This document shows, in pieces, positions 10,228 to 26,090 of a stretch of 55,370 nt of DNA. The stretch's first letter is position 1. Each line of letters starts with the position of its first letter. Under the pieces are notes generated by a model. The model made no database searches. It was not told the DNA's origin and saw only the letters and a program-made list of their open reading frames with translations. The position numbers and the translations under genes are program-made. The stretch is from an uncultured Prevotella sp. (GTDB taxonomy: Bacteria > Bacteroidota > Bacteroidia > Bacteroidales > Bacteroidaceae). The stretch is from the NCBI GenBank assembly GCA_947169685.1, contig CAMVQS010000009.1, forward strand, positions 1-55,370, given 5' to 3'.

Positions 10228-11028
10228 CTATGGATTAACAGTATTCTGAATGACCAGGCCTGCCAACATGAAACCGAAGATAGCGGTGATATGGGCCAGG
10301 GTACCGTTGATTTGTGCTTTCGACGAGCACCATTCGTGGTTCAGTAGGTTGGGATCGCCAGGACCGTTCTTGGCTTTGGGACACATGCACAGCTCTGTGC
10401 CGCAAGTGGCGTTATGGCCTTTATTCTCCAAAAGTTCATCGGAGTAGACACACATGAATTTACGCTTAGGATACTGCCCGTCGCGCTTAAAACGCTTACG
10501 CAAGGCACGTGCCAGTGGGTCGCCCTGCACCTTCCAGAACTCAGCCGTTTTGATACGTGTGGGGTCGAGCTTCAGGGCGGCACCCATCGACGAGAAGAAC
10601 TTCGCCTTGGTTTTCGTTCCCATCAGAATGAGCAGTGCCTTGTCCTTCAGCGAGTCAATAGCATCGATGATATAGTCGTAGCTGCCTATATCGAAACTTT
10701 CGGCCGTCTCAGCAGTAAAGATCTGTTGCAGGGCAGTAATCTCTGCCGAGGGGTTAATGCTCAGCAGACGCTCTTTCAAGGCATCCACCTTCACCTGACC
10801 CACTGTCTTCGTCGTTGCCATCAGCTGGCGATTGATATTGGTAATGCATACTCGATCGGAATCGACAATCGTCAGATGCTTGATGCCGCTACGCACCATA
10901 CTCTCAGCACACCACGAGCCAACGCCGCCCACGCCAAAGATAATCACACTTTTACTGCTGAGTCGTTCCATAAGCTCATCGCCCAGCAGCAACTCTGTCC
11001 TACGGAATATTGCCTGTTCTATTGCCAT
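10228..11028 (-). CDS. tcdA: tRNA threonylcarbamoyladenosine dehydratase (TcdA/CsdL-like E1 enzyme)
   Basis: The 266-residue ThiF/E1-fold protein has a GVGGVGSW nucleotide loop (31-38), the DSDRVCITNINRQ segment that binds ATP, YDYIIDAID and a cysteine-rich stretch ATCGTELCMCPKAKNGPGDPN, and a hydrophobic C-terminal helix (AIFGFMLAGLVIQ). This layout matches TcdA, which uses ATP to cyclise t6A37 in ANN-decoding tRNAs. It starts at 11028 behind promoter 11070 and ends 8 bp before the TonB receptor gene, so all three genes to 7931 may be one transcript. A deleted paralogue occupies 1-414. It lacks the CxxC zinc pairs of MoeB, unlike the E1 at 14591. Confidence 0.88.
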   Translation of the reverse strand: MAIEQAIFRRTELLLGDELMERLSSKSVIIFGVGGVGSWCAESMVRSGIKHLTIVDSDRVCITNINRQLMATTKTVGQVKVDALKERLLSINPSAEITALQQIFTAETAESFDIGSYDYIIDAIDSLKDKALLILMGTKTKAKFFSSMGAALKLDPTRIKTAEFWKVQGDPLARALRKRFKRDGQYPKRKFMCVYSDELLENKGHNATCGTELCMCPKAKNGPGDPNLLNHEWCSSKAQINGTLAHITAIFGFMLAGLVIQNTVNP

Positions 11029-12107: not shown

Positions 12108-12863
12108 TCAGATGACATAATCCGTATCAGGTGCGAGCAGTTTGTCGATGAAATAGACTATCTGCTTGCGCCACCAGGCCCAGTCGTGGGCGGAGTCGTA
12201 GCCCCAGTAGTCGATCCAAGCAGGAATGTTTTTCTCCTTGAGCAGGGCATCCATCTGGCGGGTGCTGTCGAGCAGTTCATCCTCCCACGATCCCTGACCT
12301 ACGCACATAATGATGCGGCGATGACGGTAAATGTCCCAATAGGGATGGTCGGCCGGCATCTGACGCAGGAAGTCGTAGGGCGAGTTGTTGTAGATAAGCG
12401 GGTCTTGATAGCTGGGGAAGAAGTAGCCCGCATAATAGAGTCCGCTCAGTGCCAGCAGCGTGTCGAAGAGGTCGGGACGGCGGAAGAAGAAGTTGCCGGC
12501 GTGGAAGCCACCCATGGAGCAGCCCGTGACGATAAAGGTCTCGTTGCTGAAATGGCGTACCTCGGGTATCAGTTCATCGACGATGTAGTGGTACCACCGC
12601 TCGTGCAGCTCAATGCGACGGTGATGGTCGCCCTGGATGTCCGACCACGTCTCACGGTCGATGCTGTCGGCACAAATCAGGCGTATCTGCCCACGGTCGA
12701 TGTAACTGGAGAGTACGCCCACCATGTCGAAGTCCTGATAGTCGTAGAAACGCCCATCCTGCGACGGGAAGACGAGCACGGGATGTCCCTTGTCGCCGTA
12801 GGTCTTGTATTCCATATCACGCCCAAGTGCGTTTGAGTATTTCTTCACGTAATTGATATTCAT
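12108..12863 (-). CDS. Putative esterase, alpha/beta hydrolase fold
   Basis: The 251-residue protein has the nucleophile elbow VTGCSMGGFHAGNF (GxSxG), an upstream VLVFPSQDG oxyanion-type loop and a late AHDWAWW histidine. This suits the esterase D/enterochelin esterase-like family (PF00756 type). There is no signal peptide, so it should be cytoplasmic. It overlaps the ATP-grasp gene start-to-stop (12860-12863), implying coupled translation and a joint job: the ATP-grasp enzyme forms an amide or ester that the hydrolase may edit or release. That link is inference; the fold is well supported. Confidence 0.85.
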   Translation of the reverse strand: MNINYVKKYSNALGRDMEYKTYGDKGHPVLVFPSQDGRFYDYQDFDMVGVLSSYIDRGQIRLICADSIDRETWSDIQGDHHRRIELHERWYHYIVDELIPEVRHFSNETFIVTGCSMGGFHAGNFFFRRPDLFDTLLALSGLYYAGYFFPSYQDPLIYNNSPYDFLRQMPADHPYWDIYRHRRIIMCVGQGSWEDELLDSTRQMDALLKEKNIPAWIDYWGYDSAHDWAWWRKQIVYFIDKLLAPDTDYVI

Positions 12864-14053
12864 TTCTTCAAGTGTACAAATTCAACAAATTCATTAACTT
12901 CCTCCATGCTTTCCAGACGCACCGTGTACATCTGCTGTCCCATGGCGGCAGAGAACAGTTCCGGCATGCGTTCGCACATCACCATACGGTCGCCGTAGCG
13001 TTTCAACACCTCGTCGTGCGAGTGGACGTACTGGTAGATGTCGCGACGGCTGGCAAAGGCGCAGTAGTGCTGCTGGCCGATGGCGGTATGACTCTTTCCG
13101 AAGGCCACCATGTCGGCCCATATCTTATAGACGTCGGTGCTGTGGGCATAGTTGATCATGTCGGGCGTATAACCGCCGGCAGGACGCATGTTTACCTCAA
13201 GTGCCACAAAGTCGCCCTGCTTGCCCAGACCCTCGCGGTCGCTATCCAAGCGGAAGAATTCCAGATGCACGAAGCGGTTCCATACGCCGAAGGCTTTCAC
13301 CGTGCGACGTCCCAGTTCTCGTAGCGGCTCAGGCATCTCCCTGTCCACATAATAGGAAAGGTCGAGCTTTTTGTTGACGATGTCCATGATGGAGGGTGGC
13401 CAGACGGTCATCGACTCGAAGATGGGTTCGCCCTCACGACTGATGACAGCATCGTAGGAACAGATCTCGCCCGTAATGAACTCCTCGACCACGTAGCGGT
13501 CATAGTTGGGTTCTGTCTCGTAGAACTGCTTCAGTTCTGCGTCATCGTGAATCTTATACGTTCCACTGGCTCCCACGCCTACATCGGGCTTGACGATGAT
13601 GGGATAGCCCGTCTTAATGGCAAACTGCTTGACGGCCTCTTCGCCCTCGGCGGCTCTGATCTGTCGCGCTGTAGGCACCTGGCCCTCGGCATAGTATCTC
13701 TTCATCTCCGACTTCTCCTTGATGGCACGGATGCGGTCGGTCTGTATGCCCGTCGTCACGTTGAAGTCCGTACGCAGCCGTGCGTCCTGCGCCAGCCAGT
13801 ACTCGTTGTTCGACTCAATCCAGTCGATGCGTCCGTAGCGGAAGGCCAGATAAGCCACGGCACGGTACACCTCATCGTAATTCTCCAGCGAACTCACACG
13901 GTAGTACTCCGTCAACGACTCCTTCAACTCATGCGGCAGACTCTCATACGGCGCGTCGGCAATGCCCAGCACCGTCACTCCATTCTGCTTCAGCCGCTGG
14001 CAGAAGTTCCAGTAGGTATGCGGGAAATGTGGTGATATAAATACAAAGTTCAT
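12860..14053 (-). CDS. ATP-grasp family ligase
   Basis: The 397-residue protein opens with a PreATP-grasp-like domain (MNFVFISPHFPHTYWNF). It then has the ATP-grasp core with GYPIIVKPDVGVGASGTYKI, YVVEEFITGEICSYDAV and the metal-binding end FVALEVNMRPAGGYTPD. Such enzymes ligate a carboxylate, via acyl-phosphate, to an amine or thiol. The substrate is not evident. A longer ORF reaches 14155, but the promoter at 14078-14085 lies inside it, so ATG at 14053 is the real start. It heads an operon with the esterase and double GNAT genes, a set that could make or modify a small peptide-like metabolite. Confidence 0.85.
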   Translation of the reverse strand: MNFVFISPHFPHTYWNFCQRLKQNGVTVLGIADAPYESLPHELKESLTEYYRVSSLENYDEVYRAVAYLAFRYGRIDWIESNNEYWLAQDARLRTDFNVTTGIQTDRIRAIKEKSEMKRYYAEGQVPTARQIRAAEGEEAVKQFAIKTGYPIIVKPDVGVGASGTYKIHDDAELKQFYETEPNYDRYVVEEFITGEICSYDAVISREGEPIFESMTVWPPSIMDIVNKKLDLSYYVDREMPEPLRELGRRTVKAFGVWNRFVHLEFFRLDSDREGLGKQGDFVALEVNMRPAGGYTPDMINYAHSTDVYKIWADMVAFGKSHTAIGQQHYCAFASRRDIYQYVHSHDEVLKRYGDRMVMCERMPELFSAAMGQQMYTVRLESMEEVNEFVEFVHLKK

Positions 14054-14077
14054 ATTTCTCTGCTTTCTAATCAGGTG

Positions 14078-14085
14078 CAAAGGTA
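14078..14085 (-). promoter_or_regulatory. -7 box TACCTTTG for the ATP-grasp operon
   Basis: TACCTTTGCACC on the minus strand, 24 bp before the ATG at 14053; this decides the start codon. Confidence 0.75.
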
Positions 14086-14171
14086 CTACTTTTTTAAAGA
14101 AAAACGATGCACCACACACAAACTTTAACCGACAAATAGTTTTGAGCGGGTGCATCGCGGATTAAACCGGT

Positions 14172-14561
14172 TTAGAGGTGTATCTCCTTATCCACCACCT
14201 CACCATTCAGAATCTTGAAGGAGTTTAGTTTCGGTTCTCCATCAAGCAGCGAGAGAATAGCGTAGCGGATAGTGGGATCATTGGCCAGACGAAGGTCTTC
14301 CTGTGAAGGACGCGAGGGCGAGGCTGGATGACTGTGCCAGTTGGCAAGTATCTTTAAGCCATGCTCTCGTGCATAGCGCAGGGCTGCAAACTGGTCCTTT
14401 GGTGCGAAGGAGAAGTGCTCCGACGAGTGGTCGATATTCTCCATCCAGTAGTTCTCAGTGACGTTGTCGTCCGTTCCCAAGAGATAGCCACACGACTCAT
14501 CGGGTGCATCCTTCTGAGCCTGGGCTATCAGTGTGTCTATAACGTTCTGTGGAATCTTCAT
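14172..14561 (-). CDS. JAMM/MPN metalloprotease that trims a ThiS-like carrier (HcyD/QbsD/Mec-like)
   Basis: The 129-residue protein carries a complete JAMM zinc signature: Glu22 in DESCGYLLG, then His76-Ser-His78, seven residues, Ser86 and Asp89 (HSHPASPSRPSQED). Stand-alone bacterial JAMM enzymes of this size cut residues off the end of ThiS-like sulfur carriers to expose Gly-Gly (QbsD, HcyD) or release a product (Mec). It lies 29 bp behind the MoeB-like gene and in the same transcript as the carrier, whose Gly-Gly is followed by Thr-Phe-Lys. ATG at 14561 is chosen; the longer ORF would extend into the moeB-like gene without an MPN counterpart. The role is well supported by motif plus context. 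Confidence 0.88.
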   Translation of the reverse strand: MKIPQNVIDTLIAQAQKDAPDESCGYLLGTDDNVTENYWMENIDHSSEHFSFAPKDQFAALRYAREHGLKILANWHSHPASPSRPSQEDLRLANDPTIRYAILSLLDGEPKLNSFKILNGEVVDKEIHL

Positions 14562-14590
14562 TCTGAAATTTAATGTATAATCTTTAATGT

Positions 14591-15394
14591 TTAATGTTTC
14601 AAGTCGCACGCGGCCTGTTCGTAATCTATCAAGTGGTCGATGGTCGGATGGTCGCCACAGATGGCGCACGAAGGACGCTGCTTCACGTTGATGGTACGGA
14701 ACTGCATCGTCTTGGCGTCAAACGTCAACAGACGGTTGGTTAACAACTCGCCGATACCCGTAAAATACTTCAGCGTCTCGGCAGCCTGGATGGTGCCCAA
14801 CATACCTGCAATAGCACCCAGCACACCAGCCTGCGAACACGTCGGAACGGCTCCCACAGGAGGTGGCTCTTTGAAGAAGCAACGGTAGCAGGCCGTACCA
14901 GGCAGATGCGTAAAGGTCTGTCCATTGAAGCGCAGAATGCCACCATGCGAGAACGGCTTGCCTGCCATTACGCACGCATCGTTGATGAGGAACTTCACGG
15001 GGAAGTTGTCGGTACCATCCACAATGAAGTCGTATTCCTTGATAATATCCAGCGCGTTCGACGAATCGAGAAACTCATAGTAGGTATCCACCTGCACATC
15101 AGGGTTGATGGCCTTGATCTTCTCCTCGGCACTCTTTACCTTTGGTACACCCACGTCTTTGGTGAAGTGAATCACCTGACGCTGCAGGTTGCTCAGATCC
15201 ACCACATCCGCATCCACGATGCCGATGCGCCCGATGCCTGCTGCTGCCAGATAGAGACTCACGGGAGCCCCCAAGCCGCCGGCACCTACCACGAGCACGT
15301 GTGCGTTCATTATCTTCTCTTGTCCCTCGACGCCCACATCCTGCAACAGGATATGTCGCGAGTATCGCTGTATCTGTTCTTCAGAAAAATCCAT
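14591..15394 (-). CDS. MoeB/HcyF-like E1 enzyme that adenylates a sulfur carrier
   Basis: The 267-residue ThiF-family protein has VVGAGGLGAP (36-43), the ATP-binding DLSNLQRQ (66-73), zinc cysteines 169/172 (CYRC) and 243/246 (CAIC), and the catalytic cysteine 186 in PTCSQAGVLG. It has no C-terminal rhodanese domain, so sulfur must come from another protein. This is the enzyme type that adenylates the C-terminal glycine of ThiS/MoaD-like proteins before thiocarboxylation. The ThiS-like carrier is encoded just upstream and the JAMM protease just downstream. No moaA/moaE or thiG/thiH occurs nearby, so molybdopterin and thiamine roles are less likely. Confidence 0.9.
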   Translation of the reverse strand: MDFSEEQIQRYSRHILLQDVGVEGQEKIMNAHVLVVGAGGLGAPVSLYLAAAGIGRIGIVDADVVDLSNLQRQVIHFTKDVGVPKVKSAEEKIKAINPDVQVDTYYEFLDSSNALDIIKEYDFIVDGTDNFPVKFLINDACVMAGKPFSHGGILRFNGQTFTHLPGTACYRCFFKEPPPVGAVPTCSQAGVLGAIAGMLGTIQAAETLKYFTGIGELLTNRLLTFDAKTMQFRTINVKQRPSCAICGDHPTIDHLIDYEQAACDLKH

Positions 15395-15441
15395 AATAAC
15401 TCTTCACTTTAAGCGGTAGCAAATTATTCACTCTTCACTCT

Positions 15442-15657
15442 TCACTTAAAAGTGCCTCCTCCCATGAAGTATAAGAAATCGACCTTGTCACCCTCTTTCA
15501 GCTGAATCTTCTCCCAGTCCTCGCGCTCGGCAAATTCCTCATTCACCTGCACGCTGACCATATCCGGCTGCACGACGTTATTCTGCTGAATCAGTTCACT
15601 CACGTTGAGCGGCAGGCTCACTTCCTGCGCGTCTCCATTTACATAAATCTTTGCCAT
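15442..15657 (-). CDS. ThiS-like sulfur carrier with a masked C-terminus (HcyS-like)
   Basis: The 71-residue beta-grasp protein starts MAKIYVNGDAQEVSL and ends DFLYFMGGGTFK. The Gly-Gly needed for adenylation (66-68) is followed by three extra residues, Thr-Phe-Lys, so it must be trimmed before use. A JAMM protease gene in the same operon supplies the likely trimming step. The MoeB-like gene follows after 47 bp. In Wolinella succinogenes a comparable set (HcyS, HcyD, HcyF, MetY) makes homocysteine from O-acetylhomoserine and protein thiocarboxylate; here a MetY-like gene lies on the divergent arm. No thiamine genes are present to support the usual ThiS role. Confidence 0.88.
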   Translation of the reverse strand: MAKIYVNGDAQEVSLPLNVSELIQQNNVVQPDMVSVQVNEEFAEREDWEKIQLKEGDKVDFLYFMGGGTFK

Positions 15658-15693
15658 ATCTTTGTCGGTTTAAAATGAATAAATTTCACGGTG

Positions 15694-15751
15694 CAAAATT
15701 ACTGCCTTTTGGGGAATGTCACAATCCCACACGGATGGTAAATCGCATACC
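15694..15751 (-). promoter_or_regulatory. Promoter plus shared operator module, sulfur-carrier arm
   Basis: The -7 box TAATTTTG is at 15694-15701. The operator variant GGTATGCGATTTACC (15737-15751, minus strand) begins exactly 50 bp upstream. It is the mirror image of the module at 15760-15817, so the 15658-15843 gap is a large imperfect inverted repeat. Confidence 0.8.
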
Positions 15752-15759
15752 ATATCAAG

Positions 15760-15817
15760 GGTATGCGAAATGCCACAAATGGGCGATTGTGGGGATGCCG
15801 AAAACCCCGTAATTTTG
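15760..15817 (+). promoter_or_regulatory. Promoter plus shared operator module, encapsulin arm
   Basis: The operator GGTATGCGAAATGCC is at 15760-15774 and the -7 box TAATTTTG at 15810-15817, 50 bp from start to start. The ATG of the DsrE-like gene follows 26 bp after the box. Confidence 0.8.
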
Positions 15818-15843
15818 CACCCAGAAATTAAACCGACAAAATT

Positions 15844-16323
15844 ATGGCAGAAAACAAGAAACTGAGCATCATCGCCTTCAGCGGCGATTTCGACAAGCTG
15901 ACGGCTGTATTTACATTAGGTACGGGCGCGGCAGCAGTAGGGTATGAGGTCAATATCTTCTTCACGTTCTGGGGACTCGATGCCATCAAGAAAAAGCAAG
16001 GCAGGAGTTTCACGGGCGGCAACTGGCTCACCAAGATCTTCGGATTTATGATGGGCGGTCTGAAGGTGACACCCACGTCGCGCTTTAACTTCCTCGGCGC
16101 AGGCCCCAAGATCTTCCGCTATCTGATGAAGAAGAACAACGTGGCAACACTCGAGGAACTCGTTGAGGCCGCCAAGGCATTAGGTATAAATATGTACGCA
16201 TGTGAGATGGCGATGCATGTGCTTGGCCTGAAGAAAGAGGACTTTATTCCTGAGGTGAAGGACGTGCTCGGCGTAGCCTCGTTCCTGAATCTCTCTGATG
16301 GTGGACAAACATTATTTATATAA
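15844..16323 (+). CDS. DsrE/DsrF-like sulfur relay protein
   Basis: The 159-residue protein resembles the DsrE_2/peroxiredoxin-like family: LSIIAFSGDFDKLTAVFTLG at the start, a hydrophobic glycine-rich middle (KIFGFMMGGLKV), and a single cysteine, Cys120, in NMYACEMAMHVLGL. In this family a conserved cysteine at this place carries a persulfide passed to or from TusA-like proteins. It is the first gene on the plus arm and overlaps nothing; the TusA-like gene follows after 10 bp. The leader carries TAAACCGACAA just before the ATG. Family and cysteine are seen; persulfide transfer here is inferred. Confidence 0.85.
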   Translation: MAENKKLSIIAFSGDFDKLTAVFTLGTGAAAVGYEVNIFFTFWGLDAIKKKQGRSFTGGNWLTKIFGFMMGGLKVTPTSRFNFLGAGPKIFRYLMKKNNVATLEELVEAAKALGINMYACEMAMHVLGLKKEDFIPEVKDVLGVASFLNLSDGGQTLFI

Positions 16324-16333
16324 ACCGACAACA

Positions 16334-16558
16334 ATGGCAAAAAAAGTTTTAGACATTACGAAGGAGCATTGCCCGATGACTTTCGTAAAAACAAAGATTG
16401 AACTATCAAAGCTCAATGAGGGCGACATTCTGGAAGTACTTCTCGCTGAAGGCGAGCCTCTCGACAACGTTCCCCGCAATGCTAAGGAGCAGGGGTATAA
16501 TGTGCTATCAGTGGAGCACGTCGAAGGAACAACTCATAAAGTGACGATTAAAAAATAA
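16334..16558 (+). CDS. TusA/SirA-like sulfur carrier
   Basis: The 74-residue protein has the family core LDITKEHCPMTFVKTKIEL, with the persulfide-forming Cys13 in a CPMT version of the usual CPxP motif, and the closing beta strand HKVTIKK. TusA-like proteins accept sulfane sulfur from a cysteine desulfurase and hand it to DsrE-type or E1-linked acceptors. ATG at 16334 is chosen: it follows TAAACCGACAA, whose TAA is the stop of the previous gene. A start at 16298 would overlap that gene. A 99-bp gap with three CCTTTAAC-like repeats separates it from the encapsulin gene. Confidence 0.9.
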   Translation: MAKKVLDITKEHCPMTFVKTKIELSKLNEGDILEVLLAEGEPLDNVPRNAKEQGYNVLSVEHVEGTTHKVTIKK

Positions 16559-16657
16559 TAATGTATAACCACGGAGCAAAGAAGTATTGTCCCTTTAACT
16601 TCTTAGTGAGCGAAGCGAACGATAACTTCTTCTAACTCCCTTTAACTCCTTTAAAAA

Positions 16658-18097
16658 ATGGCAGATTCTAATTTACAGCGCAGTGTGACCACTGCTACCG
16701 CCAGAAGGCTGGCGACGACAACGAAGACCGCCCCGCAGATGGGCAGTATCACCCCGAGATTACTCCTGAAGTTGCTGCCCTGGGTGCAGGTGTCTGGCGG
16801 AACATTCCGCGTGAACCGCACGAAGGTGGAACTCCGCAAGAATGACCGTCTCCCCATTCAGTATGTCAATGGACAGCCCTCGTTTACGGCGAAGAACCTG
16901 AAGGCCATCCCACTATTCTCTGAATTCGACGACGAAATCCTGAACCGTCTGGTGAGTTCGTTCGAGACGAAGGAAGTGGATGTCGATAAGTTGTTCGTGG
17001 AGGAAGGCAAGGACAAGCAGCGCTTCTTCATTGTGGCCAGCGGTCAGGCAGAGGTCATCAGCAAGGGCTCTCACGGCGAGGAACTGCGGATTGCTCTGCT
17101 TGGCGACGGCGAGTACTTTGGCGAGGCTGACCTGCTGGACGAGCAGGAATCAACCGTCAGCGTTCGCGCCATCACCCCCACCGTGTTCCTCGGCCTGAAG
17201 CTGAAGGAACTGGTGAAGTTCATCAAGGAGGTGCCCGACTTCCGCGAGACATTCAACAAGGCAGTTGACAAGCAGCTTCGCCTAAAGGCTTCTGTCAATG
17301 ACAACGGCGAGAAGCACATCGACCTGGTAAGCGGCCACGAGGAGGACAACATCATTCCCGAGACGTATATTGACTACGAGGAGAATCCAACGGAGTACAA
17401 TCTCAATACCCTACAGACGGTGGTACGTGTGCACACCCGCGTCAGCGATCTCTATAACAACCCCTACAACCAGTTGGAGGAGCAGTTGCGCCTGTCGATT
17501 GAGAGCATCAAGGAGCGTCAGGAGTGGGAGTTGATCAATAATAAGCAGTTCGGCCTTTTGGCAGCGGCCAATCCCGCTTATCGCATCACCACGCGCTATG
17601 GTGCTCCGACTCCCGACGACCTCGACGAACTGCTGAGCCTCGTCTGGAAGGAGCCCGCCTTCTTCGTGGCCCATCCGCGTGCCATCGCCGCCTTCGAGCG
17701 CGAGTGTACTTGGCGCGGTGTGCCTCCTGTGACAACAGATTTGTTCGGCACGAAGGTCATCCTGTGGCGCGGCGTACCCCTGATTCCAAGCGACAAGGTG
17801 GAGGTGGAAGGTCAGTATCTGACTGGTCGCGGCGTAGGCACCACGAAGATTATCCTCGTGCGTACCGGCGAGCAGAACCAGGGCGTCATCGGTCTGCACC
17901 AGAGTGGCATCCCCGGCGAGATTGCGCCCAGCCTGAGTGCTCGTCTGATGGGTCTCGACAAGTTTGGTGTGGCCTCATACCTGCTCACGAAATACTTCTC
18001 ACTGGCCGCCCTCACCGACGACGCCATCGCCGTCCTCGAGAATGTGGAGGTAGGCTATTATCACGATTATCAGCATCGAAATAAAGTAGAGAAATAA
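16658..18097 (+). CDS. Family 2 encapsulin shell protein with inserted cNMP-binding-like domain
   Basis: The 479-residue protein begins with the Family 2 signature N-arm (TATARRLATTTKTAPQMG, LLKLLPWVQVSGGTFRVNR). A cyclic-nucleotide-binding-like domain spans about 82-208, with the phosphate-cassette-like GDGEYFGEADLL. The HK97-fold shell domain follows (about 245-479: LYNNPYNQLEEQLRLSI, AAANPAYRITTRYG, VTTDLFGTKVILWRGVPL). Such proteins self-assemble into virus-like protein compartments. Families with this insert are called 2B; without it, 2A. The cargo gene overlaps the stop by one base. Whether the domain binds a nucleotide cannot be told: the usual arginine of the cassette is not obvious. 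Confidence 0.92.
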   Translation: MADSNLQRSVTTATARRLATTTKTAPQMGSITPRLLLKLLPWVQVSGGTFRVNRTKVELRKNDRLPIQYVNGQPSFTAKNLKAIPLFSEFDDEILNRLVSSFETKEVDVDKLFVEEGKDKQRFFIVASGQAEVISKGSHGEELRIALLGDGEYFGEADLLDEQESTVSVRAITPTVFLGLKLKELVKFIKEVPDFRETFNKAVDKQLRLKASVNDNGEKHIDLVSGHEEDNIIPETYIDYEENPTEYNLNTLQTVVRVHTRVSDLYNNPYNQLEEQLRLSIESIKERQEWELINNKQFGLLAAANPAYRITTRYGAPTPDDLDELLSLVWKEPAFFVAHPRAIAAFERECTWRGVPPVTTDLFGTKVILWRGVPLIPSDKVEVEGQYLTGRGVGTTKIILVRTGEQNQGVIGLHQSGIPGEIAPSLSARLMGLDKFGVASYLLTKYFSLAALTDDAIAVLENVEVGYYHDYQHRNKVEK

Positions 18098-19641
18098 TGG
18101 TAGATATCCAGAATATTAACGGCTACGGCATTGAAGACCCGGGCTTTGCGTTGCTTCGAGAGGTCGCCCAGAAATACTGTCCCGAGGAGGTCAGGGAGGC
18201 TCGTCAGAGTGTGCTGCCTGACTCAGCCCTGAACCTCACGGAGTTGGAGGCGGGCTTCAAGCAACTGCTGGGTGGCGGAAGCGGCTATGCCGACCTGCCG
18301 TACTTCGGCGACGCCGATGATACGCGCGGTTCGGTGAAGGTAGTGCCTCAGGATAACGGCTTCGGCATCGGTATCCCTGAGACGCAGAAACTGCGCGACC
18401 TGCACTACGAGGAGGCGGACACGCTGAACTCGGAGGAGATCAAGAAGGACTTCCCCGTGCTCCATCAGAAGGTGAACGGCCACGACCTCGTATGGCTCGA
18501 CAACGGTGCCACCACGCAGAAGCCGATTCAGGTCATCGACAAGATCAGCGACTACTACACCCACTATAACTCGAACATCCATCGCGGCGCCCACACGTTG
18601 GCAGCCCGTGCTACGGATGCCTACGAGGAGGCTCGTGAAAAAGTGCAGCGCTTCATCAACGCCGCCAGCAGCGAGGAGATTATCTTCGTGCGCGGCACCA
18701 CCGAGGGCATCAACCTTGTGGCGCAGACCTACGGACGGCAGTACCTGACGCCGGGCGACGAGGTCATCGTCAGCGAACTGGACCACCACGCCAACATCGT
18801 GCCCTGGCAGCAGGTCTCTCGCGAAAAGGGTGCCACGCTGAAGGCCATCCCCACGGACAAGAACGGCGACCTGATCCTCTCCGAGTTCGAGCGGATCATC
18901 ACACCCCGCACACGCTTTGTCAGCGTGGGCCATGTGAACAATACCTTCGGCACCATCAACGACGTGAAGCGCATCATCGACATCGCCCACGGGCACAACA
19001 TCCCCGTGCTCATCGACGGTGCACAGTCCATCGCCCACACACCTGTCGATGTGCAGCAACTCGGTGCCGACTTCTTCGTCTTCTCGGGCCACAAGATTTA
19101 CGGTCCCAACGGCATCGGCGTGGTCTATGGTCGCAAGAACCTGCTCGACAAGATGCAACCCTGGCAGGGTGGTGGCAACATGATCAAGGACGTGACCATC
19201 GAGCGTACGGAGTACAACGTGCCGCCCGCCCGCTTCGAGGCCGGTACGCCCAACGTGGCCGACGCCATCGGACTCGGTGCCGCCCTCGACTACGTGAGTC
19301 ATCTCGGCATCCGCAACATCGAGCACCACGAGCACCAACTGACGGAATATGCCCGCGAGCAACTGGCTCAGATTCCTGGCCTCACGCTCATTGGCAATCC
19401 CAAGAACCGTGTGTCGGTGGTGAGCTTCGTGCTTGACGGCATCCCCGTTCCCGAAACTGGTACGTTATTAGATAAGGAGGGCATCGCGGTGCGTGCTGGT
19501 CACCACTGCGCTCAGCCCGCCCTCCGAGCCCTCGGCTACGAGATGAGCGTCCGTCCCACCTTCGCCCTCTATAACACCCGCGAGGATGTGGATAAACTCG
19601 TGATTGCCGTGCGCAAGATCGTCGGCCAGCGCAGCAAATAG
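18097..19641 (+). CDS. SufS-like cysteine desulfurase with encapsulin-cargo N-terminal extension
   Basis: The 514-residue PLP enzyme is about 100 residues longer than ordinary SufS. The catalytic domain starts near 110 (LNSEEIKKDFPVL) and has the PLP lysine 333 (FSGHKIYGPNG) and catalytic cysteine 471 (RAGHHCAQPALR). Residues 1-108 are a low-complexity, Gly/Asp-rich arm (LLGGGSGYADLPYFGDADD, NGFGIGIPETQKLRDLHY) as found in desulfurase cargo of Family 2 encapsulins, where it targets the enzyme inside the shell. It starts at the last base of the shell gene stop (TAATG). It converts cysteine to alanine with an enzyme persulfide. Loading is inferred from this extension and the context. Confidence 0.92.
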   Translation: MVDIQNINGYGIEDPGFALLREVAQKYCPEEVREARQSVLPDSALNLTELEAGFKQLLGGGSGYADLPYFGDADDTRGSVKVVPQDNGFGIGIPETQKLRDLHYEEADTLNSEEIKKDFPVLHQKVNGHDLVWLDNGATTQKPIQVIDKISDYYTHYNSNIHRGAHTLAARATDAYEEAREKVQRFINAASSEEIIFVRGTTEGINLVAQTYGRQYLTPGDEVIVSELDHHANIVPWQQVSREKGATLKAIPTDKNGDLILSEFERIITPRTRFVSVGHVNNTFGTINDVKRIIDIAHGHNIPVLIDGAQSIAHTPVDVQQLGADFFVFSGHKIYGPNGIGVVYGRKNLLDKMQPWQGGGNMIKDVTIERTEYNVPPARFEAGTPNVADAIGLGAALDYVSHLGIRNIEHHEHQLTEYAREQLAQIPGLTLIGNPKNRVSVVSFVLDGIPVPETGTLLDKEGIAVRAGHHCAQPALRALGYEMSVRPTFALYNTREDVDKLVIAVRKIVGQRSK

Positions 19642-19676
19642 TCAAATTGTAAATGGTCAAATAGTAAAATAAAACC

Positions 19677-20909
19677 GTGCAATACGAAACGAAAGTATTA
19701 ACCACAAAGTATCAGAAACCTGACGCATACGGGGCCCTCTCGATGCCAGTGTATTACACGGCGGCATTCGAGTTCCCCGATGCCAAGGAGATGAGTGACG
19801 CCTTCTGCGGTCGCTCGATGGCGCCGTCGTATGCCCGTATCGCTAATCCCACGGTAACCTATTTGGAAGAGCGCGTCAGGCAGATAACTGGCGCACAGAG
19901 CGTGACGGCGCTGAACACGGGTATGGCGGCTATCCACTATGCCCTGACAGCGGTAAGCGCGGCAGGCTTGAACATCGTGGCCTCGAAACACCTGTTTGGC
20001 AATAGCGTCTCGCTGATTCGTGATACGTTAGGCAGTTTCGGTGTGGAGCCACGTTTTGTCGATTTCACGAAGCCCGAGGAGGTGGAGGCGCAGATTGACG
20101 ACAAGACCGCCGCGCTGTTCTTCGAGATTATCACCAATCCGCAGCTGTTCGTGGCTGACATCAAGGCGCTGTCAGAGATTGCCCATACAAAGGGCATGCC
20201 CCTGATAGCCGACACGACCATCGTGCCGTTCCCTGCCTTCCATGCAAATGAGTTTGGCGTGGATATCGAGGTAGTCAGCAGCACGAAGTATATCTCTGGC
20301 GGTGGCACAGGTCTCGGCGGTTTGCTCATCGATTACGGACGCTATGATTGGTCTCAGCATCCGTCGCCCGTCCTACAGGCCCGCACCAAGCGCGTTGGCA
20401 AGAAACTGGCATTTACGGCTCGTGTAAAGACAGAACTGGTGACGAATCTCGGTTCGCTGATGACGCCTCAGGCCGCCTATATGGAAACACTGGGTCTCGA
20501 CACCCTTGATATTCGTTTCCGTCGTCAGGCAGAGACCACTTTGTGGCTCGCTAAGCAATGCCAGGCGCTGCCCGAGATCAAACGTGTGAACTATACGGGT
20601 TTAGAAGATAATCCCTTCCATGAGTTGTCAGAGCAGCAATTTGGCCCCTTACCAGGTGCCGTCTTTACCATCGATCTCGCCTCAAAAGAAGCCGCCTGGG
20701 CGTTCATTGACAAACTGCAGGTCATCCGTCGCGCCACGAACCTCTTCGACCGCAAGTCGCTGGCCATCCATCCTGCCTCGACCATCTTCGGTCTCTTCAC
20801 CCCCGAGCAATGTGCCGAGATGTCCGTCCCCGACACGACCGTCCGCCTCAGCATCGGTCTCGAAGCTCCTGAGGATCTATTCGAAGATATCAAAACGGCG
20901 CTTCGCTGA
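19677..20909 (+). CDS. O-acetylhomoserine sulfhydrylase-like PLP enzyme (MetY family)
   Basis: The 410-residue Cys/Met-metabolism PLP enzyme has the PLP lysine 204 in VVSSTKYISGGGTG, the phosphate-binding NTGMAAIHYAL (80-90) and ADTTIVPFP with the ring-stacking region. The family makes homocysteine from O-acetylhomoserine and sulfide, or in Wolinella from a protein thiocarboxylate. The start is GTG at 19677, because an in-frame ATG upstream is closed by a stop. It lies 35 bp after the desulfurase gene. The gene ends in a 22-bp repeat array. Other members of the fold (cystathionine synthase or lyase, methionine gamma-lyase) cannot be excluded by eye. No metX is in the window. Confidence 0.82.
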   Translation: MQYETKVLTTKYQKPDAYGALSMPVYYTAAFEFPDAKEMSDAFCGRSMAPSYARIANPTVTYLEERVRQITGAQSVTALNTGMAAIHYALTAVSAAGLNIVASKHLFGNSVSLIRDTLGSFGVEPRFVDFTKPEEVEAQIDDKTAALFFEIITNPQLFVADIKALSEIAHTKGMPLIADTTIVPFPAFHANEFGVDIEVVSSTKYISGGGTGLGGLLIDYGRYDWSQHPSPVLQARTKRVGKKLAFTARVKTELVTNLGSLMTPQAAYMETLGLDTLDIRFRRQAETTLWLAKQCQALPEIKRVNYTGLEDNPFHELSEQQFGPLPGAVFTIDLASKEAAWAFIDKLQVIRRATNLFDRKSLAIHPASTIFGLFTPEQCAEMSVPDTTVRLSIGLEAPEDLFEDIKTALR

Positions 20910-21337: not shown

Positions 21338-23740
21338 TCATTTTACATGAACTTTTTGTCCGTTTACTATATTCAATCCTTTCTGCAAGGAGCTGATGCG
21401 ATGTCCTTGAAGATTGTAGATATGACTTCTAAGAACTTCCTTCTCATTTCTTACTTCTTCTATTCCAGTCGTTTGTGTCTCAAATTCGCCTATGAAGGAC
21501 TCACAACTATTCTCCACCGTCACGGTGTAACAACCCTCTGGGTAGGCGGAGATATCGATGTTGAGAGCGACAATGTTGCCTGCTTCAATGGCTTTCTCAT
21601 AGACTTCTTTGCCTGTTTCGTCAGTAATGCTTATCAGATAGGTATCGAAGAGTGGGTCGAGGTTGATAGACAGTTGCAGATTGTTGTATTCACCCGATAA
21701 CGACAGCTCTGCCTCTCTCCTCATTGGAATTTTAGGCTGTGTCTTGACAGTATGGGTAAAGTCGAAACGTCTTCGGGCATTCATGGCCTCTGGGGTGGCT
21801 TCATCCTCGTATTCGTCGTTGAGGTAGATGACTTCATCCCCAACGTAACATGCCATCAAGAACCACGCCGGGTCAGCTAATTCTCCATCAATGACATTTG
21901 TTGTAGGGCCGTAAATACCTCCGACGCCTTCCAGCCAAGGGGTACTCAGGATGGTGTTTCCTGCGTCTGTTAGCATCTCGACGTCTCTATATACGCCTTT
22001 AAAACCTTCGACACCTCCCATCTGTTTGGAGCCTATCACATAAGATCGGTCATTAATCTGCAGGGTGACATTGGCATCGTGGGAGAAGTCGTACATCAGC
22101 TTAAACTGCTTGTTTGTCTCGTTGTAGGCGTACACCTTCTTGTCCTCCTCGTACCATGCTCCCACGTAGCTCAATGGATTTTGCGAAATAATAGCATATT
22201 CCAGATACTCTAGGTTGGCAAAACGCTGGCACATCATCTGCTTACAGGTTTTCCCGTCAATGATGGTGTCACGGTCGAAGTAGTAATACTCAACCAACTG
22301 CACTGGATTACCCGTGCTGGCGTTTCCTACTTTCCAAACCTTATTGTCTTCGATGAAGGGGCGATAATCATCCTGAGCGGGAAGAGCTACGATATTCCCA
22401 AAGTTTTTCCAAGGCTCGACGGCTTGGTATGTGCCGATAGATGCAATAGGCACATGGAGGATAGCATTGTAATTTGATTTTTCAAAAGCATTATTGCCAG
22501 TCTCTGGCACCTGTTCTGCATGGCAATAAATATTTTGTAGGTTTAAACAGTCATAGAATACATAATTTCCGATGCAGGTCAAGCCTTCCGGAATGGTGAT
22601 GGAAAGCAGACGATAACATTTTGCAAACGCATAATTACTAACAGAAGTTACGCTTTCGGGTATTGTCAGATTCGTTATTTCTTTACCGTTCAAATATAAA
22701 TGATAACGACTAAAAAATGCACCATCAAACTGGATGTTGCACCATGCTGCCAAATCTGAAATATGTATAGCTTTTAGTTTGTTGCAGTAGTAAAACACGT
22801 TATTTCCGATGTGTGTTACACTTGATGGAATAGTGATTGATTTTAGACTAGTGCAATCATTAAAGGCCAAATCTCCTATGCTCGTCACACTATTACCCAT
22901 GGTGACAGAGGTAAGATTGGTACATTCCCAGAATGCATCATTTCCTATGATTGTCACACCATTACCGATGTCAATAGAAGTAAGACCATAGCAACGAGAG
23001 AATGTATAATCTCCGATGCTAGTAACACTGTTGGGTATCGTGACAGAGGTAAGACTACGACAGCCAGTAAATGCATTGTTTCCGATGCTTGCCACACTAT
23101 TTCCAATGGTAATGGAGGTCAAATTAATGCAGCCCGCAAATGTATAATCCTCTATACTTGTAACACTATTAGGAATGGTGAATGAGGTAAAACTAGTGCA
23201 CCCATAGAATGCCCTTTCTCCAATGTTTGTCACACTTTGGGGGATGGAAATGGAGGTTAGGGCAGAGCATCCGTCAAATGCATATTTTCCAATATCAGTC
23301 ACACTATTGGGAATAGTAACCGAAGTAAGGCTTAAGCATCCGTTGAACGTAAATTTTCCAATACTTGTTATGCCATCAGGAATAATGACAGAGGTAAGAC
23401 TGCGGCACCCAAGGAATGCACAATCTCCTATACTTGTCACACTATTGGGTATGGTGATTGAGGTTAGTTCATGACAACCATCAAATGCACTAATTTCGAT
23501 GCATGTCACTTTAAGTGTTCGTTCCTCAAGAGCTACTTCTTCTGGAATGACCACAACTCCACGATATTCGTTATTATAGTGACCATACCAAACTCCAGCA
23601 AAAGTAACTGCGAGTTCCGTGTTGTCGTTGATGTAGTTATAATAAATCGTAACACCATCAGCATTGGGAACTTCAATGTCATGTGCTGACGCAATTACAC
23701 CAAGCAAGCATAAGACTGCGAGTAGGTAGTTCCTTATCAT
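21338..23740 (-). CDS. BspA-type leucine-rich-repeat surface/secreted protein
   Basis: The 800-residue protein has a signal peptide (MIRNYLLAVLCLLGVIASA). About 15 LRR_5 units run from about 60 to 430 with the consensus LTSVTIPNSVTSIGxxAFxGC. A non-repeat region follows, then a C-terminal motif IYNLQGHRISSLQKGLN near the end. That ending is common in exported Prevotella-type proteins and may be a sorting signal. BspA-like proteins bind host matrix proteins or act in adhesion; the target here is unknown. It lies 4 bp behind a paralogue of similar length, suggesting tandem duplication with divergence in one operon. Confidence 0.9.
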   Translation of the reverse strand: MIRNYLLAVLCLLGVIASAHDIEVPNADGVTIYYNYINDNTELAVTFAGVWYGHYNNEYRGVVVIPEEVALEERTLKVTCIEISAFDGCHELTSITIPNSVTSIGDCAFLGCRSLTSVIIPDGITSIGKFTFNGCLSLTSVTIPNSVTDIGKYAFDGCSALTSISIPQSVTNIGERAFYGCTSFTSFTIPNSVTSIEDYTFAGCINLTSITIGNSVASIGNNAFTGCRSLTSVTIPNSVTSIGDYTFSRCYGLTSIDIGNGVTIIGNDAFWECTNLTSVTMGNSVTSIGDLAFNDCTSLKSITIPSSVTHIGNNVFYYCNKLKAIHISDLAAWCNIQFDGAFFSRYHLYLNGKEITNLTIPESVTSVSNYAFAKCYRLLSITIPEGLTCIGNYVFYDCLNLQNIYCHAEQVPETGNNAFEKSNYNAILHVPIASIGTYQAVEPWKNFGNIVALPAQDDYRPFIEDNKVWKVGNASTGNPVQLVEYYYFDRDTIIDGKTCKQMMCQRFANLEYLEYAIISQNPLSYVGAWYEEDKKVYAYNETNKQFKLMYDFSHDANVTLQINDRSYVIGSKQMGGVEGFKGVYRDVEMLTDAGNTILSTPWLEGVGGIYGPTTNVIDGELADPAWFLMACYVGDEVIYLNDEYEDEATPEAMNARRRFDFTHTVKTQPKIPMRREAELSLSGEYNNLQLSINLDPLFDTYLISITDETGKEVYEKAIEAGNIVALNIDISAYPEGCYTVTVENSCESFIGEFETQTTGIEEVRNEKEVLRSHIYNLQGHRISSLQKGLNIVNGQKVHVK

Positions 23741-23744
23741 TTTC

Positions 23745-26090
23745 TTATTTAATTACTATCTTCTTCGTTGTGCCATCACTCATTCTAATGATGTTAAGAC
23801 CACGTTGAGGTGTTATAATATGCTTACCGTCAATAGAATAATAACTTTCGCCAGTCATCACATCATCTTTTATACCCTTTATTCCTGTTGGCGTAGGATC
23901 ATCGTCTGTCAGAGCTACAATAATACCGAAGTCCATCCATTGCTCTGTAGTGTTATATGCTTCCAAATAAGCTTCAGGCACATGAAGCGTAGCACTGTTA
24001 ATCCAAAATTCAAAAACCTCGTCACCAAGTTCAGGAACTTTTTCTGCATAGCAGTACATGTCAGTCATGTGAGAACATCCATAGAATGCACCTTCTTCAA
24101 TGTTTGTCACGCCATTACCTATAATAACTGTGGCCAGTTTCAGACAATTAGAAAACGTATAAGATCTAATACTTGTCACACTGTTTGGAATAGTGACTGA
24201 GGTGAGTTCAGAGCAGCCTGCGAAGGCAGAGGACCCAATATTCGTTACGCTGTTTGGAATATTGATAGCAGTTAAGCCTGAGCAACCCCAAAACGCACAT
24301 TCTCCAATCCCTGTCACACTATTAGGAATCACCGTATTCTGACATCCTTCTAATAATGTATTGCTGGCTGTTTCAATAATTGCGTTACAATCTTCACGAG
24401 AATCATATACCGTGTTTCCATTATCTACTTGAATAGTAGTTAAAACAAAGCAATTATTTAACACACGTGAACCTATACTTGTAACGCTACTGGGGATAGT
24501 AATGGACATTAAACTTGAGCAACCAAAGAACGCATAATCTCCGACTGTTGTTACACCATTGGGAATACTTATATCAGTAAGACCATAGCAATTGTAGAAC
24601 GCATGATTTCCTATGCTTTTCACGCTGTTTGGTATGCTGACAGAAGTTAAAGCCATGCAGCCACAAAACGAACTATATCCAATGGTCGTCACACCATCGG
24701 GAATACTAATAGAGGTTAAGCCGGTGCAACTATAGAACGCATTTTCTCCAATGGTTTCCACACTATTAGGAATCACCGTATTCTGACATCCAAACAATAA
24801 GGTGTTGTCTGCTGTTTTAATAATTGCATTACAGTTTTCACGAGAGTCATATACCGTATTTCCGCTTTCCACTTGAATAGTAGTCAAGCCGCTGCAACTA
24901 TGGAATGCATTTTCTCCAATACTCGTCACATTCTTGGGTATGTTGACAGAGGTAAGGCTTGTGCAGTTGTGGAACGCATCATCTCCAATGCTTGTCACAT
25001 TCATGGGTATGATGATAGAGGTAAGGCCGCCGCAGCCATAGAATGCATTATTTCCAATGGCAGTCACTTCTTCTCCTAAAACATACTCTTTCACTTGATA
25101 GCCAAAATATCTGGATAATGAGGAGCCCGCATTGTAGTTTTTTGACATGATTGCATTGCTGTTGATAACAACTTTGGTAAATCCGTTGCATCCGCCAAAT
25201 ACCCACTCTATGTCCGTCACACCACGGGGTATGGTAATTGAAGCCAAATTATAACACTCTTGGAATGCAAATTGTCCTATGCTCGTTAAATTGTCTGACA
25301 TTTTTACTGACGTTAGATTATGACAACCCTGGAATGCACTTTCACCTATACTTATTACGCTGTTGGACATCTGGACAGAAATAAGACTACTGCAATTATA
25401 GAATGCATCATATCCTATGCTCGTCACATCTTCTCCTAAAACATATTCTTCAACTTGAGTGCCGAAATAACGGGTAATTGGTGTTGGAGAGCCAAAATGA
25501 TTATCTTCTGATACTATCGCATTGTTGTTTAATATGACCTTTTTCAGATTACTACAACCATAGAATGCTTCTTCTCCAATAGATGTCACACTATTAGGTA
25601 TATTCACAGAGGTCAGCCCAGAACATCCATTAAATGCTTTTCCTCCGATGCTGGTCACACTATTAGGAACAATCGTGCCAGTACATCCCGATATAAGTGT
25701 ATTGCTGGCAGTTTCAATAACAGCATTACAATTCTCGCGAGAATCATACACTGGATTCCCTTCCTCTATAATTAAAGAGGTAAGACTAGTACAGCTTCCG
25801 AATATTCCAGCTTCAATGCTTGTCACGCTAGCCGGGATAGTCAAAGATGTCAAGTCTGTACTTCCTCTGAATGCATCACCTATCGTTGTCACACTATATT
25901 CTACTCCATCATAAGTTACTGATGATGGAATCACCACATCTCCACTATAATGATATTTGTAATGAAACACTACTTTTGCCGTTTTCGTATTGGCATCTAA
26001 GTCGTAATAGAATCCGTCTATTAACACTGAAGCACTAACTGCCAACGGCAGCATTGACAAGAATAACAAGAAAAATAAAATACGTTTCAT
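23745..26090 (-). CDS. BspA-type leucine-rich-repeat protein, tandem paralogue
   Basis: The 781-residue protein has a signal peptide (MKRILFFLLFLSMLPLAVSA). LRR_5 repeats cover most of the length (LTSVNIPNSVTSIGEEAFYGC type), interrupted several times by a non-LRR module carrying GNTVYDSRENCNAIIETA and by two copies of YFGTQVEEYVLGEDVTSIG-like text. It ends YYSIDGKHIITPQRGLNII, related to the ending of its downstream neighbour. It is separated from the upstream regulator gene by 38 bp and has no clear promoter of its own. Extracellular adhesion is the usual role of the family; specificity is unknown. Confidence 0.9.
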   Translation of the reverse strand: MKRILFFLLFLSMLPLAVSASVLIDGFYYDLDANTKTAKVVFHYKYHYSGDVVIPSSVTYDGVEYSVTTIGDAFRGSTDLTSLTIPASVTSIEAGIFGSCTSLTSLIIEEGNPVYDSRENCNAVIETASNTLISGCTGTIVPNSVTSIGGKAFNGCSGLTSVNIPNSVTSIGEEAFYGCSNLKKVILNNNAIVSEDNHFGSPTPITRYFGTQVEEYVLGEDVTSIGYDAFYNCSSLISVQMSNSVISIGESAFQGCHNLTSVKMSDNLTSIGQFAFQECYNLASITIPRGVTDIEWVFGGCNGFTKVVINSNAIMSKNYNAGSSLSRYFGYQVKEYVLGEEVTAIGNNAFYGCGGLTSIIIPMNVTSIGDDAFHNCTSLTSVNIPKNVTSIGENAFHSCSGLTTIQVESGNTVYDSRENCNAIIKTADNTLLFGCQNTVIPNSVETIGENAFYSCTGLTSISIPDGVTTIGYSSFCGCMALTSVSIPNSVKSIGNHAFYNCYGLTDISIPNGVTTVGDYAFFGCSSLMSITIPSSVTSIGSRVLNNCFVLTTIQVDNGNTVYDSREDCNAIIETASNTLLEGCQNTVIPNSVTGIGECAFWGCSGLTAINIPNSVTNIGSSAFAGCSELTSVTIPNSVTSIRSYTFSNCLKLATVIIGNGVTNIEEGAFYGCSHMTDMYCYAEKVPELGDEVFEFWINSATLHVPEAYLEAYNTTEQWMDFGIIVALTDDDPTPTGIKGIKDDVMTGESYYSIDGKHIITPQRGLNIIRMSDGTTKKIVIK

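Follow-up and report, generated by a model that had tools for sequence, protein, structure and literature searches.

A Family 2B encapsulin–cysteine desulfurase locus paired with a tailed sulfur carrier, an E1 enzyme and a JAMM protease in Prevotella: a candidate route to homocysteine

The eight-gene locus

The window, i.e. the whole stretch of DNA analysed here (55,370 nucleotides of contig CAMVQS010000009.1, assembly GCA_947169685.1, from an uncultured Prevotella sp.), contains eight genes at 14172–20909, arranged in two divergent arms with a gap of 186 bases between them. The minus arm encodes a sulfur carrier, an E1 and a JAMM protease (hereafter the trio), and the plus arm encodes a DsrE2-like protein, TusA, an encapsulin shell, a cysteine desulfurase and a MetY-like enzyme. 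The locus combines two known systems, the encapsulin with a cysteine desulfurase and the carrier-based pathway to homocysteine, and no earlier description of the combination was found in the literature searched. The gene set is conserved in relatives of the window, and the active sites are intact. With modest confidence, we favour the explanation that the eight genes form one sulfur route, in which sulfur would pass from an encapsulated desulfurase through TusA and DsrE to the thiocarboxylate of the carrier, and then to the MetY-like enzyme to give homocysteine.

Conservation of the gene set

In the family sample of 399 genomes, 46 have a true shell orthologue with 75–100% identity. Two more of the 48 shell matches (G496 and G690; G, genome; L, locus) cover only the cyclic nucleotide monophosphate (cNMP)-binding part and its surroundings with 24–26% identity, and these were dropped. 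E1 orthologues were accepted at 76% identity or higher, and matches of 67% or lower (G719 downward) were excluded from the co-occurrence count. The E1 orthologue is present in 49 genomes, that is, in 44 of the 46 genomes with the encapsulin and in 5 of the 353 others (Fisher p ~2e-50, uncorrected for kinship and inflated by relatedness). The shell occurs in ten genera of the sample, and E1 stands alongside it in nine. Two shell genomes have no E1: in G620 (86% complete) the contig with the shell is only 4 kb long, and in G599 (78% complete) the shell lies 2 kb from the end of its contig. The trio is located at the shell locus itself in 39 of the 46 genomes, including that of the window. Thus, the two arms are not adjacent in this genome only, a case that an earlier note on the window, made from the letters alone, had weighed against its own proposal; the co-occurrence that it suggested looking for is clear within the family.

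Forty-five family loci were fetched in addition to the window's own, with L111 used instead of the shorter L062. The desulfurase and DsrE are found in all 45, the MetY-like gene in 42 and the complete trio in 38. The full set occurs in six gene orders. The trio is divergent and upstream in the window; elsewhere it follows the desulfurase, or it lies upstream and is read in the same direction. One group of this last kind has DsrE and TusA between E1 and JAMM (E1-DsrE-TusA-JAMM-shell), and the position of MetY also varies. With two layouts lacking a local trio included, the shell tree calls for a minimum of 11 layout changes. A chance gene order is ruled out by the several orders that hold the full set.

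The named loci were the best 80 of 453; with shell identities of 95% or higher, all are close kin. Among these 80, 39 loci have flanks of 6 kb or more on either side, and they contain the desulfurase (39), MetY (39), the trio genes (36) and the carrier (35); L197 has E1 and JAMM with no carrier match. Three isolates hold the full set, Xylanibacter ruminicola D31d, Prevotella aff. ruminicola Tc2-24 and Prevotella sp. khp7. An accident of one genome or a bad metagenome-assembled genome is ruled out by these isolates together with the 46 family loci.

The 186-base gap contains an operator-like inverted repeat, TCGCATACC-N8-GGTATGCGA, at 15743–15768. The repeat is flanked by two outward TAATTTTG elements, at 15810–15817 on the plus strand and at 15694–15701 on the minus strand. 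We take TAnnTTTG to be the Bacteroidetes promoter element. For the repeat scan, loci were sorted by hand into 51 with the window's layout and 28 with the other main layout, and these two layouts were covered. The core repeat with at most one mismatch was detected in the carrier–DsrE gap of 40 of the 51 loci with the window's layout and in 1 of the 28 others, and base-shuffled loci gave 2 matches in 902,501 bases. It is a fair inference from the repeat that a single regulator acts on both arms, in the window's layout only. A LuxR-type gene is often located near the locus.

Outside the family, 393 genomes of the order were sampled. The shell was detected at E values up to 1e-60 in ten of them, nine of which do not belong to the window's family. 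Six loci with flanks, from four families, were obtained from outside the family, and three more loci are too short. In the six flanked loci, the shell and desulfurase are accompanied by the carrier, DsrE and TusA in every case, and by E1 and JAMM in five. CysK is also found in all six, serine acetyltransferase in four and MetY in one. These counts indicate that the tie between shell and carrier extends further than the tie to MetY. Four of the six loci lie on contigs longer than 100 kb, which argues against misbinned fragments. The earlier note had proposed that the two systems belong together, and this proposal is strongly supported by the association, the six gene orders, the changes on the shell tree, the four other families and the shared control region.

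Five other fetched loci (L106–L110), apparently green-sulfur-like and flavobacterial-like, have shell relatives and lack the tailed carrier and JAMM. Thus, the trio is no general part of Family 2 desulfurase loci. A distant E1 homologue (47–52% identity) lies about 7 kb downstream in L108 and L110, and a ThiS-like protein with no tail is found in L108 and L109; L108–L110 are therefore possibly an older, looser form of the pairing between shell and trio. All three belong to Family 2B and also encode CysK and serine acetyltransferase.

Gene products

Curated family models recognise all eight genes, as the earlier note had read them on both arms. The features are as follows.

14172..14561, minus strand: HcyD-like metalloprotease of the JAMM/JAB type, predicted to cut off the tail of the carrier (Pfam Prok-JAB, 89 bits)
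14591..15394, minus strand: E1/MoeB-like adenylyltransferase without rhodanese domain (Pfam ThiF, 274 bits, sole domain)
15442..15657, minus strand: ThiS/HcyS-like sulfur carrier (Pfam ThiS, 47 bits; end FLYFMGGG-TFK)
15658..15843, no strand: divergent control region (sequence and repeats)
15844..16323, plus strand: DsrE2-like protein, candidate sulfur relay (Pfam DrsE_2, 141 bits)
16334..16558, plus strand: TusA/SirA-like sulfurtransferase (Pfam TusA, 73 bits)
16658..18097, plus strand: Family 2B encapsulin shell with cNMP-binding domain (SrpI-like shell, 377 bits; cNMP_binding, 53; NF041163, 568)
18097..19641, plus strand: SufS-type cysteine desulfurase, predicted shell cargo (Aminotran_5, 502 bits; NF041166, 721.6)
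19677..20909, plus strand: MetY-like pyridoxal phosphate (PLP) sulfhydrylase with GTG start (Cys_Met_Meta_PP, 283 bits)

The shell matches the family 2B model NF041163 far above its cut-off of 400 bits. PF19307 and PF00027 are both above their cut-offs, corresponding to an HK97-type SrpI-like fold with an inserted cNMP-binding domain, and the nearest solved chain is 9bje. The Family 2 encapsulin of the earlier note is thus retained and refined to Family 2B by the cNMP-binding domain. The last base of the shell gene is the first base of the desulfurase gene. The best NCBIfam model for the desulfurase is that of family 2A encapsulin cargo, NF041166; the score is under the cut-off of 800, and the first 216 positions of the model are unmatched. 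The N-terminal extension noted earlier is present, but it has about 117 residues and is shorter than those of four relatives from other classes or families (245–348 residues). Lys333 and Cys471 are conserved in all 44 rows, out of 46, that have a residue at these positions. Of 23 genomes tested, 13 have the shell, and all 13 encode a separate SufS-like enzyme with 49–54% identity to the locus desulfurase; in the window genome G000 (2.59 Mb, 82% complete) it is located at G000:C38 (49%). According to its family and its operon, the desulfurase is predicted to sit inside the Family 2B shell. The desulfurase gene of L083 is in two pieces, and an in-frame stop lies within the shell match at G738:C51:27354-28781; these are either assembly errors or decaying copies. 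One pattern scan of viral contigs detected no shell relative.

The active-site residues of the trio are invariant. In JAMM, the residues of E..HSHx7SxxD (E, HxH, S and D) are invariant in 48 of 48 rows, and the nearest solved structures are 2kks and 2kcq, followed by JAMM1 5lda. The E1 consists of 267 residues with the ThiF domain alone, and its four zinc-type cysteines (CxxC..CxxC) and Cys186 are invariant in 48 of 48. Cys120 of the DsrE2-like protein (46 of 46) and Cys13 of TusA (49 of 49) are also invariant.

The earlier note had described the carrier as masked, and this holds for all relatives. In 48 of 48 rows (47 loci and the window), the invariant GGG in the motif FL(Y/F)FMGGG is followed by 1–40 variable residues, and the tailed carrier is also found in all six loci of other families. 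Thus, a protease is required to expose the glycine end. The predicted structure of the carrier, built from 25 sequences, is a ThiS-like beta-grasp with a mean predicted local distance difference test score of 87.6 and a low-confidence C-terminal tail. In the fold search ThiS proteins came first, and the best match was 3cwi of Geobacter metallireducens, deposited as ThiS. The predicted fold fits a sulfur carrier and is uninformative on the product.

The ordinary ThiS proteins of related genomes end in KA(A/F)CGG with nothing after it (15 of 15, read from match positions). A second ThiS, with a bare GG end and located near ThiG, is found in ten near-complete shell genomes. G412 (94% complete) and G494 (97% complete) have the tailed carrier only and no ThiG. 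In G465 and G759, which belong to the same genus as the window genome, the thiamine operon has its own E1 with 56–58% identity to the trio E1. No ThiG match was found in G000 at its 82% completeness. Since the carriers are tailed, a bare-GG ThiS stands beside ThiG, and G412 and G494 lack ThiG, thiamine is unlikely as the product of the carrier. The earlier note had considered thiamine as a case against its route, and these counts and ends disfavour it.

For the MetY-like enzyme, the best solved structure is 3ri6 (350 bits versus 262 for the next), which we take to be the Wolinella enzyme. In a quick tree with long-branch warnings, the MetY-like enzymes group with 3ri6 with a support of 100, apart from the conventional MetY-type paralogues of the same genomes. 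All 41 full-length enzymes from the family loci fall in this clade, and the PLP lysine is invariant in 43 of 43. Two lineages can be told apart among them: genes of the window type mostly follow the desulfurase gene, and those of the other (315 versus 246 bits) mostly lie upstream. A homoserine-activating enzyme (HTS family) is present in all 13 encapsulin genomes tested.

Comparison with known systems

The locus resembles the homocysteine pathway of Wolinella succinogenes (HcyS/HcyD/HcyF/MetY) that Krishnamoorthy and Begley reportedly described in 2011. Both have a tailed ThiS-like carrier, JAMM, E1 and a MetY of the 3ri6 clade, and the active sites are intact here. The Wolinella cluster is said to obtain sulfide from sulfate reduction, with a sulfite reductase in the cluster. 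At the window locus no sulfite reductase was found, and the encapsulin, cysteine desulfurase, DsrE and TusA are present instead. In the CysO/CysM/Mec pathway of Mycobacterium, a carrier and JAMM likewise feed a PLP enzyme; that pathway makes cysteine and its E1 has a rhodanese domain, unlike the E1 here.

The class 4e operons of Iyer, Burroughs and Aravind (2006; PMC1779556) contain a ThiS/MoaD-like protein, JAB, an E1 without rhodanese, SirA/TusA, O-acetylhomoserine sulfhydrylase and sulfate-assimilation genes, and the class 4e list includes Wolinella and Geobacter metallireducens, the latter also the source of the best fold match of the carrier. The E1 without rhodanese, SirA/TusA and JAB are shared with the window locus. 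In contrast, the sulfate-assimilation genes are absent from the window locus and are found near trios away from the shell (L115, L116 and L120), whereas the encapsulin and desulfurase present here are not mentioned in the class 4e account.

Cysteine-desulfurase encapsulins of Families 2A and 2B have been described as a shell and a SufS-type cargo with N-terminal extension, and Family 2B with desulfurase has already been counted in 199 operons (PMC8049743, PMC8346489). The shell and extended desulfurase of the window agree with this description. The most enriched partners named in these accounts are serine acetyltransferase and rhodanese, in place of the carrier trio found here, and the main text of PMC8346489 contains no mention of ThiF, MoeB, homocysteine or methionine. 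No literature joining encapsulin, cysteine desulfurase and homocysteine was found in a search that lay outside most subscription journals, all preprints and supplements.

Source of the sulfur

The trio is also found away from the shell, often near sulfate-assimilation genes, which are its published context. According to the translations, sulfite reductase genes neighbour the trio in L115 and L116, and siroheme genes neighbour it in L119 and L120. CysDN is also present in L115 and L120, and CysH in L115. PF01077, the sulfite reductase family, is located within about 12 kb of E1 in all four of these genomes. In the stretches read around four other such trios (L113, L117, L118 and L121), no sulfate-assimilation genes were found. 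There are likewise none at the window locus. PF01077 had no match in the window locus or anywhere in G000 (82% complete), and of the other encapsulin genomes among the 46, 39 gave no match either. PF01077 is present in 4 of the 39 genomes with the trio at the shell versus 5 of the 10 with E1 elsewhere (p 0.011, uncorrected for kinship); many of the genomes are incomplete, and the ten include the sister pairs G414/G439 and G561/G589 as well as G783, which has E1 without this carrier. Because the trio away from the shell often lies near sulfate-assimilation genes, the simplest reading is that the source of sulfur has been swapped, sulfate being the probable source away from the shell and the encapsulated cysteine desulfurase the probable source at the shell. 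In L114 (G429), the carrier, E1, TusA, JAMM, serine acetyltransferase and CysK are found together without the shell; this is possibly a cysteine-making version of the module.

Proposed route and alternative explanations

From the conserved genes and active sites, we infer cargo loading, a persulfide relay, formation of a thiocarboxylate and homocysteine as the product. In the first step, the desulfurase would take sulfur from cysteine as a persulfide inside the shell; the formation of a persulfide from cysteine is established chemistry of the SufS family. Then TusA and the DsrE2-like protein, with one invariant cysteine each, would carry the sulfur out. JAMM would trim the variable tail of the carrier, and E1 would adenylate the exposed glycine end, both being known chemistry of these families. 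The sulfur would turn the carrier adenylate into -COSH. Finally, by analogy with the Wolinella pathway, MetY would join the carrier sulfur to activated homoserine, and JAMM would free homocysteine. The net effect would be a transsulfuration in which cysteine sulfur reaches homocysteine with no cystathionine intermediate and the encapsulated desulfurase takes the place of sulfate-derived sulfide. There is about an even chance that the shell is a depot for sulfur from cysteine and that this depot has its own exit, the JAMM-matured protein thiocarboxylate, serving cystathionine-free transsulfuration in gut Prevotella; the carrier module would then be coupled to sulfate reduction in part of the relatives and to the shell in the rest.

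Several observations weigh against this route. Seven of the 45 family loci lack a local trio: in five of these genomes it lies elsewhere (in G589, on the contig that also carries the shell), and the incomplete assemblies of the other two, G599 and G620, contain no E1 orthologue. The named loci L144, L150 and L157 lack the trio inside their flanks. The four genomes with sulfite reductase noted above still hold the trio at the shell. G394, G446 and G482 have enzymes of the MetY clade but neither trio nor shell, and G783 has such an enzyme together with an E1 but no carrier of this kind. In all three loci read that lack the shell and the tailed carrier (L242, L243 and L245), the MetY-clade gene is in tandem with a MalY/PatB-type C-S lyase, which is likely an alternative route from cysteine to homocysteine; membership of the clade alone is thus no proof of thiocarboxylate use. 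Outside the family, five of the six flanked loci lack MetY and all six have CysK. Lastly, all 30 genomes checked, with the trio or without it, encode one or more further full-length Cys/Met PLP enzymes, which are mostly placed with conventional MetY, so the route through shell and carrier is not the sole route to homocysteine. The feeding of MetY by the carrier, as proposed in the earlier note, is supported by the family loci and by the 3ri6 clade, but the MetY-clade enzymes beside MalY and the single MetY outside the family speak against it. This step is therefore supported but not settled.

The alternative that keeps most of the route has a different acceptor. The shell, desulfurase and trio would form one route, for example with CysK regenerating cysteine from stored sulfur, and MetY would use free sulfide or work as a cystathionine synthase with MalY. 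The counts of CysK, serine acetyltransferase and MetY outside the family are in line with this explanation, and CysK is also present in many family loci. The pairing of MetY-clade enzymes with MalY in genomes without the carrier points in the same direction, as does the known CysO/CysM/Mec carrier system, which makes cysteine. However, CysK also adjoins shells without a tailed carrier (L106–L108), MetY is present in 42 of the 45 family loci, and the best 60 solved-structure matches of the L088 CysK are named cysteine synthase, O-acetylserine sulfhydrylase or alike, none of them CysM (judged by names only). These names give no sign that CysK is a CysM-like enzyme. We regard a different acceptor as unlikely, though it is the most plausible of the alternatives.

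A little less plausible is the explanation that two separate sulfur systems are located together because both answer sulfur limitation, the carrier using free sulfide and receiving none from the shell. The sulfide chemistry of the Wolinella pathway counts for it. The trio and the shell can also lie apart, and four genomes with sulfite reductase keep the trio at the shell. Published sulfate-type operons contain the same trio (PMC1779556). Against separate systems, the set is retained through repeated rearrangement, interleaved orders such as E1-DsrE-TusA-JAMM-shell are found, and sulfite reductase is present in just 4 of the 39 genomes with the trio at the shell (many of them incomplete).

It is improbable that the trio acts in ubiquitin-like conjugation, tagging and regulating proteins such as the desulfurase or MetY, and delivers no sulfur. 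JAMM and E1 match the models of archaeal desampylase and UbaA, both below the cut-off, and an archaeal SAMP/JAMM pair is described as regulating an enzyme (PMC4443979), but TusA and DsrE are in the cluster, the alternative context of the trio is sulfate assimilation, and the MetY clade is of the thiocarboxylate type. Least credible of all is the carrier as the thiamine ThiS of the cell: it is the sole ThiS-family protein found in G000 (82% complete) and its best fold match was deposited as ThiS, but the second bare-GG ThiS proteins beside ThiG, the carriers of G412 and G494 without ThiG and the lack of a ThiG match in G000 speak against this product.

Neighbouring genes

After the JAMM gene, an ATP-grasp ligase (12860–14155, minus strand) and a putative esterase of PF00756 (12108–12863, minus strand) are located. 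This pair repeatedly adjoins the system (e.g. L063, L064, L104, L185, L189 and L194), and in L296–L298 of other families it lies directly after the desulfurase; the two genes may be part of the system. Two large leucine-rich repeat proteins, presumably BspA-like, adjoin the cluster at 21338–26090 (minus strand), and a BspA-like gene is also found upstream of the shell in L080 and L081. A second E1-like protein is encoded at 10228–11028 (minus strand). Its best model is TcdA (tRNA t6A cyclase), under the cut-off, and a TcdA-like second E1 also stands beside the system in several other loci.

Significance

For the fate of the sulfur after the encapsulated cysteine desulfurase, a complete chain of candidate acceptors, with a product that can be tested for, is now at hand in these loci. 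The chain is present in cultured strains (X. ruminicola D31d, P. aff. ruminicola Tc2-24 and Prevotella sp. khp7). The carrier module has apparently changed its source of sulfur from sulfate to cysteine. The loci also provide a genomic test of the purpose of such shells. If the proposed route is true, the sulfur of such shells would gain a named destination, homocysteine, in the gut Prevotella group.

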